From Marinobacter sp. LA51 (lineage in GTDB: Bacteria > Pseudomonadota > Gammaproteobacteria > Pseudomonadales > Oleiphilaceae): a stretch of DNA of 64,000 nucleotides. The notes under the pieces are model-generated. The model saw only the letters and a program-made list of their open reading frames with translations. It had not been told where the DNA came from and searched no databases. Numbering within the stretch: the first letter of the stretch is position 1; each line of letters opens with the position of its first letter. The translations under genes and the position numbers were made by a program. Shown one piece after another: positions 46,334 through 53,364 of this stretch. The DNA lies in the NCBI RefSeq assembly GCF_030297175.1, contig NZ_AP028070.1, positions 1,116,001 to 1,180,000 on the forward strand, given 5' to 3'.

Positions 46334-46403
46334 GTTACGCGTAACGTCTGAGTGAGCCATCCTGGCAAGAGCGTCTGCCGGCCATTGGCCGCTATCTGCC
46401 CTA
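46334..46403 (-). other. Degenerate attC-like site
   Basis: Between the genes at 45744 and 46401 the minus strand reads from the TAG stop through GCGGCCAATGGCCGG (a hairpin-forming core) to ACGTTACGC, a core-site match (part of the palindrome GTTACGCGTAAC at 46334-46345). The expected TAACAA end is missing. It could be a decayed cassette recombination site. Confidence 0.3.
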
Positions 46404-47141
46404 ATTGTCCCACTGAATCGAGGTTTGCCTGTCCGGCGGCGGAAGTTTGGGCAACATGGCCTCCACGTCAACCGTGTAGGTAGCGAAAAAAGTTTCCGCC
46501 GCTTCAATCAGAGCCGTCTCGGTTTTGAGGATACCAAGATAGACCGGCCATTCGGCGTCGATCAGATCCGTGCTGTAACGTTCCGAATCGACTTCCACCT
46601 GCAGCGCCAAAAACCGGAACTCCATTTCGTTCATGACGATGTAATCGCACCGGTTACGCAGAAACATTCCCAGCATCTGCTGTGCATTGTAACCGTCATG
46701 GCGGACCAAGTCGGTCCCGATCCGCCGCTCGAGTCGATCACTGTAAACAAACCATTTGCGCAGACAGATGTTGCCCTGAAGGTCATCGAAGGAGTCCGGT
46801 TGTCGGCCAGTCTGAGCGAACACTCGGTCACGCCAGATTAACACCGGTCCGACAGCGTGCATCCGGTCCGGCACCGGCATCCAACGCGGGCTGGCGAAAA
46901 CCGCGTTAGCTAGTCCTTTTCCCAGGGCCCAGGCGTGGCGTTTGCGCGCCATAGGGCGGAAATCAGCTGCGATACCCGTCTCCACCGTGAACTCATTAAT
47001 CACCTCGACCAGGATGCCCTTGTTAAGGTTGTCACCATAATAAAACGGCAGGAAGCCCTGATCCGACCCCATGATCTGGAGCGTTTGCGACGAAACTGGA
47101 AGGAACCAGAATGCTGAGATGATCAGCAGGACTATTCTCAT
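46401..47141 (-). CDS. Periplasmic solute-binding protein-like (family 3)
   Basis: A 246-residue exported protein. The ATG at 47141 has GGGAGG eight bases upstream and starts a signal peptide (RIVLLIISAFWFLPVSS). The mature part has the two-lobed binding-protein pattern: LQIMGSDQGFLPFYYGDNLNKGILVEVINEF (ligand-binding opening), MARKRHAWALGKGLANAVFASPRW, and a second lobe with RFLALQVEVDSE. There are no transporter genes beside it. Free-standing family 3 proteins of this length often act as sensory or amino-acid-binding proteins. It may be a cassette gene, since it lies just beyond the last good attC-like site. Confidence 0.75.
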   Translation of the reverse strand: MRIVLLIISAFWFLPVSSQTLQIMGSDQGFLPFYYGDNLNKGILVEVINEFTVETGIAADFRPMARKRHAWALGKGLANAVFASPRWMPVPDRMHAVGPVLIWRDRVFAQTGRQPDSFDDLQGNICLRKWFVYSDRLERRIGTDLVRHDGYNAQQMLGMFLRNRCDYIVMNEMEFRFLALQVEVDSERYSTDLIDAEWPVYLGILKTETALIEAAETFFATYTVDVEAMLPKLPPPDRQTSIQWDN

Positions 47142-47253: not shown

Positions 47254-47292
47254 ATTTAACGCCTGGCACACCGGTGCCCTGACTTGTTAGCG
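47254..47292 (-). other. attC-like site (short)
   Basis: On the minus strand it reads CGCTAACAAG at the R'' side (with the TAA stop of the HEPN gene) and GGCGTTAAAT at the R' side. Between them is GGGCACCGGTGTGCC, which pairs with itself. At 39 nt it is shorter than most attC sites, so it may be reduced. Confidence 0.55.
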
Positions 47293-47856
47293 GGACTTTC
47301 GTAGTGTGGCGATATCGTCTAGCAACCTCTTCACTTCCTCCGCGGGATTGAGTTCGAAGGAATGCTCAAGCTCCAACACCTCACCGCTGACTATGTTCAT
47401 GGCATCTTGCATGTGCTTGATTAGGTTTTTGATTTGATCTGGCGTGATACCAGCACGCTTGTAGGACTCCTCAATACTGAGCTTTCTGCTCCTATGCCCA
47501 AACACGTTCGACCGAAGTATGCAGATCTTCGTCCAGTTTTCCCGAATCTCCTCGGCAGCAGACTCCAGTTTATTTTCCACCTCGGGAGCAACGAGTTTTT
47601 TCTCTCGAACTTGTTGGAAAAGATTTGGCAGGTTTATCGTGTCCCGCCTGTTCTCAAACAATCGGTAGAGGGTAATTACTGCAGTCAAAAAGTGAGCATG
47701 AATGGTCGATTGAAAGAAAATTGTGTATTGGTTTAAGTCATCTAAGTGCTCTGTTCGAGCTTCCCTATTAGAAAGCTCCCACCAGATATCGTACGAAAGG
47801 CCCGCTTCCAAGAGCGCTTTCTTTAATTCCTGAATTTGCTCGCCGATTTCATCCAT
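47287..47856 (-). CDS. HEPN domain protein, AbiU2-like (integron cassette)
   Basis: A 189-residue all-helical protein. The start is ATG 47856, just after the attC core GTTAGTG (47866). The central part has the AbiU2/HEPN pattern IHAHFLTAVITLYRLFENRRDTINLPNLF (about residues 60-88). RSNVFGHRS (about 126) gives the HEPN Rx4-6H motif of ribonucleases. AbiU2-like HEPN proteins occur in abortive-infection and toxin modules, often with a partner antitoxin, but here none is adjacent. RNase activity is inferred only. It is the fifth cassette from the array's right end. Confidence 0.6.
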   Translation of the reverse strand: MDEIGEQIQELKKALLEAGLSYDIWWELSNREARTEHLDDLNQYTIFFQSTIHAHFLTAVITLYRLFENRRDTINLPNLFQQVREKKLVAPEVENKLESAAEEIRENWTKICILRSNVFGHRSRKLSIEESYKRAGITPDQIKNLIKHMQDAMNIVSGEVLELEHSFELNPAEEVKRLLDDIATLRKSR

Positions 47857-47865
47857 ATCTTTTTT

Positions 47866-47943
47866 CACTAACGCTCGGCACATGCGCCGATTTGGAGCCA
47901 CGAAGCGGCGTAAAATCGGTCGACGTGATGTCACTTGTTATGT
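47866..47943 (-). other. attC-like site
   Basis: On the minus strand R'' is ACATAACAAG (TAA is the stop of the EVE-like gene) and R' is GCGTTAGTG. The inner arms CCGATTT and AAATCGG pair across a 19-nt loop. Total length 78 nt, within the usual range. Confidence 0.7.
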
Positions 47944-48396
47944 TTTTTCGCTCATTTGTTCGATCAATCTGTACGATTTTGAACCAGGGTCGCGCAAGAT
48001 TGAGATGGTATCGGTCATGATGTACTGCTCCCACGACTTCGCATTAGTTTGGAAATCTGAGAAGTAAATAGCATTTTCGATCCTGCGAAAATGCCTAAAC
48101 CAAACACCCAGTTCAGGTTCTGTTCTTCTGATGTAGTTGTAATCACCCGCAACCGTGACAACAGCAAACGGGAAATGGTGAACGATGATTAAAACCTTAT
48201 CGCCGACCTCCATATTTTTTGCAAAATCAACGTAATCTTTCTGAGTAGAGAGAATTTGTTGCTGTGCATCCGAGAGGAGATCTCCCACTTTAGTAGCAAA
48301 ATCGAGACCGATGAATCCGGCGGCGATGCTTTGATTTGCGTAAAAGCCCGCGTTCGCTGAATCATCGGGGTGCAGTTGCATACGCCAATAGTTCAT
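47938..48396 (-). CDS. EVE/PUA-like domain protein (integron cassette)
   Basis: A 152-residue protein. The ATG at 48396 has AAGGAA upstream. The sequence pattern resembles EVE/PUA-like modified-base binding domains: YWRMQLHP at the N-terminus, AAGFIGLDFATKVGDLL, then MEVGDKVLIIVHHFPFAVVTVAGDYNYI, ending GVWFRHFRRIENAIYFSDF. EVE-like domains recognise modified bases in DNA or RNA and are common at the N-terminus of restriction enzymes. The fold is my reading by eye; a structure-based search would be needed. The stop codon TAA overlaps attC. Confidence 0.5.
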   Translation of the reverse strand: MNYWRMQLHPDDSANAGFYANQSIAAGFIGLDFATKVGDLLSDAQQQILSTQKDYVDFAKNMEVGDKVLIIVHHFPFAVVTVAGDYNYIRRTEPELGVWFRHFRRIENAIYFSDFQTNAKSWEQYIMTDTISILRDPGSKSYRLIEQMSEKT

Positions 48397-48413
48397 CGTG
48401 GTTTCCTTATTAC

Positions 48414-48484
48414 ACAAAACGCCAAGGTAAGCCACCGGTACGGAGCAGCGCGTAGTACCGGTCGGCTTCACCTACTGGTTAAAA
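48414..48484 (-). other. attC-like site
   Basis: On the minus strand it begins TTTTAACCAG (R'') six bases after the TGA stop of the 137-residue cassette protein, and ends GGCGTTTTGT (R'). Inner arms ACCGGTAC and GTACCGGT are perfectly paired, extended by AAGCC and GGCTT. Length 71 nt. Confidence 0.7.
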
Positions 48485-48489
48485 CTCGA

Positions 48490-48903
48490 TCACTTGCGAC
48501 GCAATTGCTCCGCAGCAATCCACTTAGAATCGGAAGGTCGGAGGATTTCCACAACTTTCCACGCATTGTTTTGAGTTCCACCCCGCATCTTGTTCACTGC
48601 TCTCGACACAGATGGAAAGCTCTCCCCGCCATAAACGACACAATCGCCTAAGATTTCAGCGTATCTGTATTCACTGTAGTACTTTGTTCGAATACGAGTT
48701 TTCTCACATAAGAACAGATTATTCCAAGTCAGTCCCTCTGTTACTCGCGGCCTGATTGGGTCATCTTGAGTGCGCTTTAAAAAGGCTTCTACTTGCTCTT
48801 CTATAACAGCGTTAGCGGCTGTGCCGTGACGACGCATGAGCTCTTGATAAAGCTCAAGTTGAATCGGTACTGCTACGAAATCGAGTTGAGAGACACTAGA
48901 CAT
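48490..48903 (-). CDS. Protein with RAMA-like C-terminus (integron cassette)
   Basis: A 137-residue protein. The ATG at 48903 follows GGAGG. The first 45 residues (VPIQLELYQELMRRHGTAANAVIEEQVEAFLKRT) look like a ribbon-helix-helix or dimerisation helix. The C-terminal part, YRYAEILGDCVVYGGESFPSVSRAVNKMRG then NAWKVVEILRPSDSKWIAAEQLR, resembles RAMA/SAWADEE-like modules of restriction-modification associated proteins. This is an eye-based call with moderate support. It is the third cassette from the right. Confidence 0.5.
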   Translation of the reverse strand: MSSVSQLDFVAVPIQLELYQELMRRHGTAANAVIEEQVEAFLKRTQDDPIRPRVTEGLTWNNLFLCEKTRIRTKYYSEYRYAEILGDCVVYGGESFPSVSRAVNKMRGGTQNNAWKVVEILRPSDSKWIAAEQLRRK

Positions 48904-48963
48904 GACGTGGTTCCTCCACGGTTTATATGGAGAACTTTAGAGCGCTCTATAGTGCTTTGCAAG

Positions 48964-49035
48964 TTTTAACGCTTTGCTCACCGGTAAATTAGGAGCGCAG
49001 CGAGTAATTTATCCGTGTGCAGCAACTTGTTACGC
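48964..49035 (-). other. attC-like site, near copy of the one at 50290
   Basis: On the minus strand R'' is GCGTAACAAG (stop TAA of the 413-residue gene inside) and R' is GCGTTAAAA. The inner arms are ATAAATTA and TAATTTA around CTCGCTGCGCTCC. Length 72 nt. It shares most positions with the next site, showing common origin. Confidence 0.75.
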
Positions 49036-50271
49036 ACCTCTTGGCCACTCCTCATGAAGTCCAAAAATCTCTCTTAACGACAAACCTTCATGCCATTTCA
49101 TTCTGTTTTCTTCAGGAGTAGCAAAAGGGAAGCATTTGAGTGATTCAGGAGCTGGCATAGTTGCCCATGGGTTGAAGTACACGGTGCCGTTCCTTGTAGC
49201 GAGTGATGATGCTTGTAAATCATTAAATAACCATGCTGCGCTGACGCGCGAGTATTGTGGCCCATTGTTTCCTTGCCACGCACCATTTGGCGCCCTCCGC
49301 AATTTTGGCTCGGCATCGACATTAGGAGAAAATACAAATTGCTCTTGCCCAAAAAGAGCCTGCATCTCATCAATAGGATCAAGGTGAAAGCTATCTAGAT
49401 TTACAGCCACCACCAAGGGAGTATTGAGATCGCCATATTTTCCTCCCTTAAATTTGATCGCGTCGCGAATAGGACTCCAGGCATCGACCCAACCGCCGCC
49501 AACCCCTCCGATCCCGATAAGGTTCGAACTTTTCCCTCGGCGTTCCGGCTTAATTGGAATAGGGCGAATTTGCAGATTCCAACCATCGTGGCTCCACAAA
49601 ATGGGTTCTAACGAATCAAATCCTGAATCCTCTATTTTTTGGTTTACCTCATCAGGATCAAGAGAATCTAACCACCTGTGTACCGTATTTTTTAACTTTT
49701 TCCCGCTAGGGGGACTTTTAGGACTACCTTCATCATCGAGCGAAATCATAAAGTTATGATGGGGCGACTTTGTCAATGTATCTAATACAGCCCCTTTTCT
49801 TGCTTCTCCGCCTTTGTCTAACCCGTTATTTTCGGTTGCGAGAACCGCCTCGAGATAAAAGCTCTCACCGTTCGGATCTAAAACATAGAAGTCAGGTTTA
49901 TAGCGTTTTCCATTTGGAAGTTCGGGGTGCGGAGTAAGGAGGAAACCCCTTCTTCTCAGGGCGTCGTGCAAAAATAGTTCAAAAGTAGCTGATCTAAAAT
50001 GAACGTCATCACCTGACCTGAGACGGGAAATAAGCTCTTCTACTTCCGATTCTGGATAGTTTGCAACACACTCTTCAATGAGATCCCTGACAGACCCCAT
50101 TTCTGGCCTGGCAGAACGGTTATAAAAAATAAAATCAGACTCCAAGTTTTTCTTGGGAGAACTGTCTGTTCGTAGCACCCTATCAAAAACTTTCCGGCCA
50201 AACCTATTTGGCCAAACTCCCAAAATCTGTTTGAGGGCCCTCGTTCTTCTTTTTTGGCTAACTCTACCCAT
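49030..50271 (-). CDS. 413-residue protein with PD-(D/E)XK-like motif (integron cassette)
   Basis: The start is ATG 50271 just after the attC core; an upstream GTG lies inside the attC. The N-terminal 60 residues are basic (GRVSQKRRTRALKQ). About residue 93-150 the pattern matches a nuclease-like fold: SATFELFLHDALRRRGF, an Asp in GKRYKPDFYVLDPNG, and YLEAVLAT where a Lys of the classical motif would be replaced by Ala. The C-terminal part has PNGAWQGNNGPQYSRVSAAWLFND and no recognised domain. Activity cannot be claimed because one catalytic position is unusual. It is the largest cassette gene and ends in the attC. Confidence 0.6.
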   Translation of the reverse strand: MGRVSQKRRTRALKQILGVWPNRFGRKVFDRVLRTDSSPKKNLESDFIFYNRSARPEMGSVRDLIEECVANYPESEVEELISRLRSGDDVHFRSATFELFLHDALRRRGFLLTPHPELPNGKRYKPDFYVLDPNGESFYLEAVLATENNGLDKGGEARKGAVLDTLTKSPHHNFMISLDDEGSPKSPPSGKKLKNTVHRWLDSLDPDEVNQKIEDSGFDSLEPILWSHDGWNLQIRPIPIKPERRGKSSNLIGIGGVGGGWVDAWSPIRDAIKFKGGKYGDLNTPLVVAVNLDSFHLDPIDEMQALFGQEQFVFSPNVDAEPKLRRAPNGAWQGNNGPQYSRVSAAWLFNDLQASSLATRNGTVYFNPWATMPAPESLKCFPFATPEENRMKWHEGLSLREIFGLHEEWPRGA

Positions 50272-50289
50272 GAGGTCACTCAGTAGTGT

Positions 50290-50361
50290 GCGTAACGCCT
50301 TGCTCACCGGAAAATTAGGAGCGTAGCGAGTAATTTTTCCGAGTGCAGAAAATTGTTAGAT
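50290..50361 (-). other. attC-like site
   Basis: On the minus strand it reads ATCTAACAAT (R'', perfect RYYYAAC with the TAA stop of the DUF5677-type gene) and GGCGTTACGC (R'). Inner arms AAAAATTA and TAATTTTCC pair around CTCGCTACGCTCC. Length 72 nt. Closest copy is at 48964. Confidence 0.78.
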
Positions 50362-50979
50362 TTCACCTGCATCTCTAAGCTGCTCCAAGGTAACCATATA
50401 TTGGTTGGCAATGAGTTCAATTGCATAGCCAATATCCAATACCGGGAAATTCACTTGTTTACCGAATGCCTCTTGGAAGATGGTGTCTAAACTCTTTCCA
50501 TGCGTGTCAAAACTGGTGATACGGTAAATAAAATATAGGTAACTTAGCCTATCACCATAATCGTTTTTAACCTGGGCAAGCATGCTATTTACATCCATTG
50601 TTCGATTCAGACTTGACCAAGAAGGATCTGAAGGCTCTAGCTTATCTTTATGAGGCAACAGCGGCTCATTTAAGAGCTTGTGGTAATCCAGCTTGAAAGC
50701 ATCAATCAGACCAGCGTATCGATTGGCTGTTTGAGCAGGATCGTCAAATAAGTAGATAATCCAGAAATAGTTTTCCAGGATGGATCTGGAAAGAATATGA
50801 GTTATATAGCGCTCATCTAGGCCAGCACCTTTGTCACAGCTAAAACTCTCAAGAAGAGTTCCTGCTATAGAATAAAAACGCAATGCTTCTTGACCAAAGA
50901 AACCATTTGCACCGCTTCTCGACCCAAGCTGCTTGATGGCATCAAGTTCATTCTTCAACTGTTCAAAATAATCTTGCAT
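50356..50979 (-). CDS. DUF5677-like helical protein (first cassette)
   Basis: A 207-residue largely helical protein. The ATG at 50979 has AAGGAA upstream, and a core-site match GTTAGAT lies 16 bp before it. The N-terminal part (QDYFEQLKNELDAIKQLG), middle (YITHILSRSILENYFWIIYLFDDPAQTANRYAGLIDAFKLDYHKLL) and C-terminal ELIANQYMVTLEQLRDAG fit the helical pattern of DUF5677-type proteins. I do not see an Rx4-6H RNase motif. The family is often near defence genes but has no proven role. It is the first cassette at the right end of the array. Confidence 0.6.
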   Translation of the reverse strand: MQDYFEQLKNELDAIKQLGSRSGANGFFGQEALRFYSIAGTLLESFSCDKGAGLDERYITHILSRSILENYFWIIYLFDDPAQTANRYAGLIDAFKLDYHKLLNEPLLPHKDKLEPSDPSWSSLNRTMDVNSMLAQVKNDYGDRLSYLYFIYRITSFDTHGKSLDTIFQEAFGKQVNFPVLDIGYAIELIANQYMVTLEQLRDAGEI

Positions 50980-50994
50980 ACGATTCCTTGAAAA

Positions 50995-51045
50995 ATCTAA
51001 CACCGTATTCAACGAACACGTTCGTATAACACACGTTCGCATAAA
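50995..51045 (-). repeat. Array right boundary: core site GTTAGAT and two 15-bp direct repeats
   Basis: On the minus strand GTTAGAT ends at 50995. Just upstream (51016-51045) are two tandem 15-bp copies of TTATnCGAACGTGTn, differing at two positions. An attI site with its direct repeats would have such a layout, but no integrase gene follows, so a decayed attI or an unrelated repeat are both possible. A weak 60-codon minus frame (51009-51191) covers the repeats and is not claimed as a gene. Confidence 0.4.
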
Positions 51046-51432
51046 TCCATCTTCGGATGCTCTGTGCCCAGCAATATCGGCCTTTCAATCAATGCCATAG
51101 ACAACTCAAAGCAACCACCGTCCGAATTTATACGCCCACCTGCGATCAGCCTGCGATAGCCAAAGGGGCGTATAACTCCAATCCCTAGCAATTTAGTTTC
51201 AACCCTATCAGATGGTTAGCGAGCTTTCCCGTCTTTCCCTCGGGCTTTTGCGAGCTTGTTCTTATAACTCCAGCCTGCAGTGCTACCGAGTGCGCAGATT
51301 CAGTGTTCGCGCGTTGCTTCAGAGGTGCCGTGCTGGTAATTTCAACCCAGTTTCACCGGGTAGGGTAGCCAAGGATTTGGTGTTGCGCGTAACCCGGTGT
51401 GCACATCGTTACTGCTTCAAAGGATTGAAGGC
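51046..51432. other. 387-bp gap between the cassette array and vgrG
   Basis: I recognise no gene here. It contains the direct repeat GCGAGCTT at 51219 and 51250 and a small inverted repeat (GTAAC 51391, GTTAC 51410) near the vgrG start. An integrase gene would be expected on this side of the array and is not there. The vgrG promoter probably lies in this stretch. Confidence 0.5.
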
Positions 51433-53364
51433 ATGCCCCAGGCAAATGGATTGCAGTTCACCGTCCGTGTCGGTGAGTTTCCCTCAGACGTTTTTTCTGT
51501 AGTCGGCTTTGCGCTGACCGAAGCCCTTTCCGAGTTATTTCATGGCCGCTTACAGCTGGCGAGTACCGATCCCGCTATTGGCGCCGTGGATGTGCTCGAG
51601 CAGCCTGTCGAACTGTTGATCTGGCAGGATGGAGAACCGCTGCGTCGCTTCACCGGTGTGGTCAGCGAGTTTGTTCGCGGCGACTCCGGCCATCGCCGAA
51701 CCCGCTATGAACTGGTCATCCAGCCGCCGTTGTGGCGGTTGGGGTTGATGCACAACAGCCGGATTTTCCAGAAGCAACGTCCCGACGCCATTGCACGCAC
51801 ACTGCTGGAAGAGCGGGGCATCGTAGACTCGGTGTTTGAGGTTAAGCGCGAGCCTGCGGAGCGCGAATACTGCGTTCAGCACCGGGAGAGTGACTTGGCG
51901 TTTCTGGAACGGCTGGCGGCTGAGGAAGGCTGGCATTACCGCTATCAGCATGGCGCGGTGGACGGCAGTGCATCGGCTGGCCTGATCCTCGCCGACCATC
52001 ACGGCGATGCGCCGGTTCTGGTTCCAGTCGGATATAACGCCTCTACGGGTGGCAGTCACCGGCAATTGTCGGTGTTCCGGTTTCGCTACCAGGAGCGGGT
52101 CCGAGCCGCTTCGGTGGCGCTCAAAGACTATACCTTCAAGAATCCCGCCTACGCCTTGATTCATGAGCAGGGCGCCAGCACCCCCAACCATCGCGACGAC
52201 TACCAGCATTTCGACTACCCGGGCCGATTCAAGGCCGATGCCAGTGGCCAGCCTTTTACCCAGGCAAAACTGGACGCGCTTCGAAACGACGCCAGCACCG
52301 CCCAGGGCGAGAGCAATCGCCCGGACTTCGCACCGGGCGCCAAGGTTGAACTCACCGATCATGACCAACCGAATCTGAACCGGGACTGGCTGCTCACTGC
52401 CGTTACTCATCAGGGCCAACAGCCTCAGGCTTTAGAGGAAGAGGGCGGGTCGGAACCAACTACCTACCACAACAGCTTCAGCGCCATCCCCGCGAACCTC
52501 ACCTGGCGGCCGCAGTGTGTTCATCGCCCCATCATGGACGGGCCGCAGATCGCCATCGTCACCGGGCCCGAAGGAGAAGAAATCCACTGCGACGAACACG
52601 GCCGGGTGAAGGTGCGCTTCCCGTGGGATTGCTACAGCCAAAATGATGAACACAGCGGCGCCTGGCTGCGGGTTAGCCAGGGTTGGGCCGGCGGGCAATA
52701 TGGTTTCGTAGCGCTGCCCCGCATCGGCCATGAAGTGATAGTGTCCTTTCTGGATGGCGACCCGGACCAGCCGATCATCACCGGGCGCACATACCACGCC
52801 ACCAACAAACCACCGTACGCATTACCTGAGCACAAAACCCGCACCACCCTGAAAACCCAGACTCACAAGGGCGAGGGCAGCAACGAATTACGATTCGAGG
52901 ACGAAGCGGATAAGGAACAGATCTACGTCCACGCCCAGAAAGATCTGGACCTGCTCACCGAACACAATCGAACCGAAGTGATCAAGAACGACAGCCACCT
53001 GACCGTCGTCAACAACCGGTTCGGGCGCGTGGGTGGCAACAGTCACAGCACGGTAGAAGGTGAGAGCAGAGAACACATCGCTGGCGATTTTAGCCACACC
53101 GTGGGTGGCAGCCACCACGTCCACCAGGGCCGAGCCCAGTTCATCGAGGCGGGCCGGGAGATTCATCACAAGGCTGGTATGAAGATTGTGATTGAAGCCG
53201 GGGCGGAAGTGACTCTGCAGGCCGGGGGCAGTTTTGTGAAGGTGGACCCGAGTGGCGTCACTGTCTCCGGGCCGCTGGTGCGGATGAATTCCGGCGGCGC
53301 GCCGGGTAGCGGTACGGCTGCTTCTGCTCAGCCACCGGAAGCCCCTCAAACAGTAGCGACGTGA
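51433..53364 (+). CDS. vgrG: Type VI secretion system tip protein VgrG
   Basis: A 643-residue VgrG of canonical length. The start is ATG 51433 with AAGG upstream; the frame is open further upstream without family sequence. Residues about 5-330 form the phage gp27-like part (LQFTVRVGEFP at the start, REYCVQHRESDLAFLERLAAEEGWHYRY about 150). Residues about 365-460 form the gp5-like OB domain (IVTGPEGEEIHCDEHGRVKVRFPWD, ALPRIGHEVIVSFLDGDPDQPIITG). The C-terminal needle has repeats rich in Gly/His (FSHTVGGSHHVHQGRAQFIEAG). No toxin extension is present and no T6SS core genes or effector are adjacent, so it is an orphan VgrG. Confidence 0.93.
   Translation: MPQANGLQFTVRVGEFPSDVFSVVGFALTEALSELFHGRLQLASTDPAIGAVDVLEQPVELLIWQDGEPLRRFTGVVSEFVRGDSGHRRTRYELVIQPPLWRLGLMHNSRIFQKQRPDAIARTLLEERGIVDSVFEVKREPAEREYCVQHRESDLAFLERLAAEEGWHYRYQHGAVDGSASAGLILADHHGDAPVLVPVGYNASTGGSHRQLSVFRFRYQERVRAASVALKDYTFKNPAYALIHEQGASTPNHRDDYQHFDYPGRFKADASGQPFTQAKLDALRNDASTAQGESNRPDFAPGAKVELTDHDQPNLNRDWLLTAVTHQGQQPQALEEEGGSEPTTYHNSFSAIPANLTWRPQCVHRPIMDGPQIAIVTGPEGEEIHCDEHGRVKVRFPWDCYSQNDEHSGAWLRVSQGWAGGQYGFVALPRIGHEVIVSFLDGDPDQPIITGRTYHATNKPPYALPEHKTRTTLKTQTHKGEGSNELRFEDEADKEQIYVHAQKDLDLLTEHNRTEVIKNDSHLTVVNNRFGRVGGNSHSTVEGESREHIAGDFSHTVGGSHHVHQGRAQFIEAGREIHHKAGMKIVIEAGAEVTLQAGGSFVKVDPSGVTVSGPLVRMNSGGAPGSGTAASAQPPEAPQTVAT

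Follow-up and report, generated by a model that had tools for sequence, protein, structure and literature searches.

How does a gene cassette array come to be filled when no integrase gene stands beside it? Arrays of this kind are commonly taken for inactive remains, and in the cited passages of PMC3607928 an integron has one attI and an array without intI is static. We address the question in Marinobacter sp. LA51, whose genome is a single contig of 3,774,518 bases; the window analysed is its 64,000-base stretch from base 1116001 to base 1180000, and positions below are counted within it unless given in Mb. Here five cassettes, each ended by an attC site, lie behind a 270-bp attI module with no integrase gene, and they were probably placed there by an integrase acting in trans from elsewhere in the genome. 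The sequence shows directly the module, the attC sites with their orientation, the lack of a linked integrase, and the recurrence of the module in 17 shared-flank groups with differing cassettes. Under this proposal, an integron integrase (IntI) encoded at another locus would act on the orphan module, inserting circular cassettes by recombination at G^TTA, and the module would drive expression of the genes closest to it.

Five attC-ended cassettes behind an attI module

Five consecutive minus-strand open reading frames (ORFs; 47287-47856, 47938-48396, 48490-48903, 49030-50271 and 50356-50979) are each closed by an attC-like palindrome. The initial annotation described this attC array correctly but overlooked the attI module at its head (50999-51271). 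The features are as follows.

47260..47871, minus strand: cassette 5, gene 47287-47856 (HEPN/AbiU2) and the short attC 47255-47292
47872..48419, minus strand: cassette 4, gene 47938-48396 (EVE-like fold) and attC 47867-47943
48420..48969, minus strand: cassette 3, gene 48490-48903 (RAMA-like, weak) and attC 48415-48484
48970..50295, minus strand: cassette 2, gene 49030-50271 (PD-(D/E)XK-like, PD-T7-5-related) and attC 48965-49035
50296..51000, minus strand: cassette 1, gene 50356-50979 (DUF5677-like, weak) and attC 50291-50361
50999..51028, minus strand: attI core, crossover G^TTAGAT with its G at 51001, one mismatch to the genus attI pattern
50999..51271, minus strand: attI module of ~270 bp with no attached integrase gene, DNA match in 51 of 120 genus genomes
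51128..51177, no strand assigned: inner leader hairpin TTATACGCCC...GGGGCGTATAAC, a computed fold in a conserved leader
51240..51272, minus strand: P1 palindrome, closing the module on its outer side, degenerate in the window, from module ends set side by side and the window sequence

In order to avoid circularity, we trained a covariance model of attC (R2) on other Marinobacter genomes only: a motif-and-pairing scan, after removal of near-duplicates, yielded 46 sites from 18 loci, of which one likely chance match was dropped, leaving 45 sites and none from LA51. This model, used in place of that of IntegronFinder, recovered all five window sites, with expectation values (E) of 2e-8, 2.1e-8, 6.6e-7, 0.001 and 0.013, and gave one further match in the 64 kb up to E 10 (E 0.51), thereby confirming the proposed run of five minus-strand genes with attC-like ends. 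The annotation was also right that the stop codon TAA lies inside the R'' box in four of the five genes; the exception, gene 48490-48903, stops with TGA. Genome-wide, where the 150 top-ranking of 2208 first-look candidates were scored, 16 matches had E<=1, every one at three attI loci: five in the window array, six at 1.520-1.523 Mb and five at 3.722-3.727 Mb. The attC call has its weak points. The final site (47255-47292) is just 38 bp and degenerate-looking, and single-strand fold energy is unusual in one site (z -2.76) and unremarkable in the other four (-0.08 to -0.88), so that the case for attC rests on sequence and arrangement. A scan requiring complementary R boxes overlooked real sites, which a relaxed scan recovered; an Rfam scan at gathering scores and a tRNA scan had no matches.

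With at least two attC sites and no integrase nearby, the array falls within the definition of a cluster of attC sites lacking integrases (CALIN). Of the parts of a complete integron it has the attC-ended cassettes and, by homology to integrase-linked copies, the attI, and it lacks an adjoining intI. Because it starts at an attI module, we read it as a docking platform, not a leftover array.

The DNA of 50970-51396 recurs at two more places in LA51, heading each of its other attC clusters. Across the genus, for which 120 Marinobacter genomes were searched for the attI pattern, module DNA and integrases, similarity to 50970-51396 (at most five candidates scored per genome) stops a few bases past the crossover G^TTA in most genomes, a few alignments running ~28 bases further. 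A 30-base attI pattern, allowed up to three mismatches, was present in 69 of the 120 genomes, and the same pattern read backwards, used as a control, in none; at family level it occurred in 76 of 163 genomes and three of 16 genera. One contig from another genus of the family (G152, C1) carries four such sites. We infer from these comparisons that the module functions as attI. These data also bear on whether the array might be a plain attC cluster, begun at a random site through off-target insertion and ending in a sequence that resembles attI by chance. Parts of PMC12901181 describe insertion at attG sites, and parts of PMC12444791 describe Xanthomonas CALINs at conserved places away from the integrase; set against the near-constant length and conservation of the module over ~270 bp, and against the 69-to-none count for the core, such an origin is highly improbable for the array. 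An off-target origin of single cassettes is possible.

Linked and orphan attI sites in Marinobacter

The pattern gave 131 matches in the genus, reduced to 129 sites by removing two (in G097 and G116) that overlapped another match on the opposite strand. Sites within 3 kb of an integrase match at E<=1e-40, whole or partial, were classed as linked and all others as orphan, which gave 31 linked and 98 orphan sites. The attI-to-integrase distance was 352-378 bp in 30 of the linked sites and 566 bp in one. More than one attI site was found in 45 genomes; 24 genomes had both kinds, 38 orphans only and seven linked sites only, and 74 of the 98 orphans sit in genomes with an integrase match elsewhere. 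Since 96 orphans have 3 kb of upstream sequence on their own contig, and the nine single-contig genomes hold 20 attI sites of which 16 are orphan, draft contig ends were rejected as the source of most orphans. In genome G099, one of five attI sites is linked to intI.

Cassettes lie on one side of the orphan sites: strict attC sites numbered 243 in 485 kb downstream versus three in 288 kb upstream, and two in the reverse complement of the downstream DNA, which served as control. At least one strict attC lay downstream of 74 orphans. When the upstream DNA of the 96 orphans with 3 kb available was examined by tblastn, seven kept an integrase remnant and 89 had none.

Orphan modules have the same outer boundary as linked ones. 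Compared with ten integrase-linked copies, 60 of 94 alignable orphans lose similarity 260-299 bp ahead of the crossover, and P1 is a palindrome, GTTATACGAAC-N2-GTTCG..., that resembles the attI core itself. The distance from P1 to the crossover has a median of 270 bp (5-95%: 267-273) among orphans with a recognisable P1 (72 of 98), and is 271 bp in all 18 integrase-linked copies measured. Just outside P1, a CTGT-N8-ACAG box, which we take to be of LexA type, occurs in seven of ten linked copies versus none of 97 orphans. The same module thus heads linked arrays in the genus, and attI, attC, cassette order and orientation are as in a sedentary chromosomal integron; orphan modules differ from one in having no adjoining intI, no such box and several modules per genome. 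One tentative extension is that the docking platform is itself mobile: the integron integrase might copy the 270-bp integrase-free module, bounded by two of the P1-like palindromes, to further sites on the chromosome, with one integrase gene serving all platforms in trans and several arrays being filled in parallel. Excision of intI between two flanking palindromes was considered and rejected, the 3' side of intI having no palindrome in the 20 copies examined.

In LA51 itself there is no intI within 3 kb of the window module (locus L185), and the whole 3.77-Mb genome has no integron integrase above the TIGR02249 cut-off, so the array was rightly called integrase-less both locally and genome-wide. 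By comparison, 83 of the 120 genus genomes have a match above it. The eight sub-cut-off matches in LA51 comprise four within two full-length frames of 301 and 348 amino acids (aa), which by size and score are taken for Xer recombinases, a weak one in a 444-aa frame, and three decayed or isolated pieces. The best of the eight is a decayed piece at 1.5183 Mb, adjoining the second attC cluster; an isolated 103-aa ORF (L006, C1:3539354-3539596) matches the integron integrase model in its N-terminal portion only. As the sole attI-adjacent integron-type integrase is thus a broken remnant at another array, the window array is probably frozen, and all three LA51 arrays are likely to be so.

The LA51 array at 3.727 Mb has a flank gene (L184:6310-7010) present in 116 of 124 genus genomes. 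At least ten genomes have, ~40-170 bp from this gene, an integrase of what is apparently another type (model positions 3-312), which suggests that the gene marks an old integron locus of the genus.

Cassette turnover at shared loci

Single-linkage grouping of the upstream flanks placed 90 of the 98 orphans in 17 groups of 2-15 genomes and left eight singletons; no genome appeared twice in any group, and some groups may merge neighbouring loci. Same-locus pairs were compared where at least 1 kb of flank aligned and 400 bp of downstream sequence was available. The first cassette was common to none of 148 such pairs, including 12 with flanks at least 95% identical. In 115 of 152 same-locus pairs the 1 kb leading up to the crossover had no indel of more than 30 bp, and hence the junction is shared. 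Taken together, attC sites almost wholly on the downstream side, shared flanks, mostly shared junctions, and unshared first cassettes argue that orphan attI sites probably take up cassettes by means of an integrase provided in trans; the support for such recombination is comparative.

The same figures speak to ordinary decay, by which each orphan was once a complete integron, filled by its own intI and then deprived of it separately in each lineage, with no trans action. The seven orphans that keep intI remnants fit this, and LA51 has one such locus. CALINs are described as degraded integrons in parts of PMC9024848. At one locus (cluster 0) intI lies between the flank gene and attI in G119, G117, G008 and G033 and the module stands alone in others, and some orphans were therefore clearly made by intI loss. 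As a general account, however, decay has to contend with the 89 of 96 orphans that show no intI trace, and with junctions shared by pairs that have no first cassette in common: where the junction is shared without an indel, any loss of intI predates the split of the two genomes. We regard it as rather unlikely.

The window array belongs to a locus that can be followed in several relatives by its two flanking genes.

46401..47141, minus strand: distal flank gene, periplasmic substrate-binding-like by eye, also found beyond the array in M. similis (G054)
51397..53364, plus strand: proximal flank gene, VgrG-like by eye, with ~91-95% homologues adjoining the module in G065, G043 and G054 (in pieces in G054)

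The module stands head to head with the VgrG-like gene, and the flank on this side is also common to G076 and G105. At this vgrG locus five relatives carry a different first cassette. M. sediminum R65 (G043) has the order attI-B and M. alexandrii LZ-8 (G065) the order attI-A-attC-B, both joins being at G^TT, so that cassette A may have been gained in G065 or lost from G043. Displacement of a shared cassette by other cassettes was found in three pairs, this one included. A check of 63 named loci for the presence of attI, vgrG and the flank genes did not show an empty site. The distal flank and the cluster-0 flank, used as queries (at most four candidates scored per genome), revealed none either and returned flank reshuffling and the usual integron locus instead. 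The G043 homologue of the distal flank gene (C4:1338339-1339107) lies ~10 kb from the intI of that genome, hinting that distal flanks are exchanged between arrays at different loci.

Cassettes also recur across loci. Fourteen pairs without flank similarity share their first cassette, among them one pair within a single linkage group and another formed by L201 and L228. These two orphan loci, of G013 and G018, hold the same 2.4-kb element (80% identical), which begins at the crossover and encodes a protein ~28% identical to IntI, and which is possibly another recombinase-bearing element targeting attI. A GFA-like cassette that ends the vgrG array of M. similis stands first in the LA51 array with an intI remnant at 1.519 Mb (91% over 525 bp). 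The cassette of gene 49030-50271 recurs at 97% identity in G022, starting within four bases of the same crossover, behind a different attC; the G022 copy is truncated by unrelated sequence (L348 after 2620), possibly an insertion element.

Several observations weigh against filling in trans, in addition to the cluster-0 locus. Strict attC sites were not seen at 24 of 98 orphans (21 of 95 when at least 400 bp of sequence was required), and the orphan attI core averages 1.06 mismatches (98 orphans) versus 0.67 in 18 linked copies; the orphan mean is 0.88 with attC and 1.63 without. Where a genome has linked as well as orphan sites (24 genomes), the linked integrase match is only partial in at least four cases (G016, G105, G109 and G112). 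An indel of more than 30 bp was present in 37 of the 152 same-locus pairs. Linked attI sites turn over alike, with a first cassette common to three of 128 pairs, and turnover alone is therefore not special to orphans, although the flanks of linked pairs include intI, so that these pairs are not strictly one locus. At the vgrG locus, which gives the clearest case of insertion, cassette B is only 76% identical between G043 and G065, and the integrase of these two genomes is diverged (66-69% identical to the reference IntI) with no attI of the genus pattern beside it, so that it may not be matched to the orphan attI. Finally, the M. similis module is short by ~83 bp, and a sigma-70-like promoter directed into the array was not found.

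Cassette genes, related systems and significance

The initial annotation presented the array as a set of defence genes, which goes too far: two of the five are linked by sequence to described defence families, one of them distantly. Of its protein calls, HEPN/AbiU2 and PD-(D/E)XK-like hold and EVE-like holds by fold only; RAMA-like is weak, and DUF5677 stays below its cut-off. Gene 47287-47856 matches AbiU2 (PF18734) at 74.4 bits against a cut-off of 26.8, and has no PADLOC match at E<=1. The predicted structure of the product of gene 47938-48396 has a predicted local distance difference test (pLDDT) score of 90.5, and its best PDB matches by Foldseek are MJECL36 and PH1033 (E ~9e-5, template-modelling (TM) score ~0.5), which we take to be EVE proteins, followed by YTH domains and VcaM4I, consistent with an EVE/PUA-like fold. 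The gene has 767 relatives at E<=0.001 (120 listed), and a Pfam scan of 28 members gave no convincing match (best E 0.012); some relatives (such as P0012) carry a precomputed PF28530.1, absent from the Pfam scan of the same proteins.

Gene 49030-50271 encodes a 413-aa protein with conserved FE, PDF and EA residues; at the K position of PD-(D/E)XK most members of its family have V and some K. It and all 27 aligned relatives match PD-T7-5 of PADLOC-DB (window protein E 1.9e-5, best member 8e-11), and 16 of these 28 members also match PD-T7-1. The window protein differs from PD-T7-5 in that the match is distant and limited to residues 92-153. Relatives at less than 60% identity occur on 20 plasmid records, mostly of Acinetobacter and Pseudomonas, and PDB sequence searches with three alignments, this family included, returned no usable match. 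PD-T7-5 is said to originate from an E. coli defence screen.

The other two genes are less clearly placed. Gene 48490-48903 has nine relatives besides itself, with weak matches to RAMA (PF18755; one of ten members, E 0.078) and DUF2924 (three of ten, best E 0.0017), and its top Foldseek match, CcrM, is weak too (E 0.25). Gene 50356-50979 reaches 25.5 bits for DUF5677 (PF18928), under the Pfam cut-off of 27.1, and has no match on plasmids. The array is therefore predicted, from sequence and modelled structure, to include two nucleic-acid-directed defence proteins (AbiU2-like and PD-T7-5-like) and an EVE-fold reader, and some of the five cassettes are likely antiviral. Papers on defence genes in integrons reportedly appeared in Science in 2025.

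Could the five genes instead form a defence island, kept together for phage protection, with the attC sites incidental? The AbiU2 and PD-T7-5-like matches and the EVE fold are in its favour. The five relatives whose array at this locus opens with another cassette speak against it, as does a search for relatives of the cassette genes in the other 123 genus genomes (E<=1e-15), in which gene 47938-48396 had none and gene 49030-50271 one, in G022. Cassettes at other Marinobacter arrays are, moreover, of mixed kinds. From 224 cassettes of other orphan arrays, 172 ORFs were obtained and 103 scanned, at most two per array. PADLOC returned 215 families, the 25 listed having two or three members each, some with strong matches (PtuA- and AriA-type ATPases), and Pfam returned 55, the 25 listed having one to three members each (ParE toxins, GNAT, GFA). 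A defence island is thus improbable.

Set beside known systems, the LA51 array resembles the CALINs of PMC9024848 in having several attC-ended cassettes with no integrase nearby, and differs from them, as far as the cited parts of that paper go, in the conserved attI module at its head and in the comparative evidence that modules of its kind continue to take up cassettes. The same parts state that attI outside class 1 is poorly described and goes undetected by IntegronFinder. Xanthomonas genomes, in the cited parts of PMC12444791, likewise have one intI locus plus arrays at conserved places elsewhere, with CALINs at seven loci that the authors consider mobilisable in trans; no attI is reported in those parts. 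A table in PMC10295459 gives Marinobacter sp. LQ44 one CALIN and one In0 as separate elements of one genome, and the cited part mentions no attI for the CALIN. Delta-attI cassettes of mobile integrons, as covered in part of PMC12901181, also have attI sequence outside its usual place; they are mostly short attI fragments replacing attC inside arrays, unlike the full module heading the LA51 array. In the literature searched we found no description of orphan attI platforms.

For LA51, the array offers five single-gene defence candidates, one related to a PADLOC family, and the module offers a sequence handle for locating attI outside class 1 integrons. It also makes the question of trans action testable in closed genomes with one intI and several modules, such as G099. 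If orphan attI sites are indeed filled in trans, a single integrase could assemble arrays in several parts of the chromosome, and many CALINs may be active platforms with an attI that no one has searched for.

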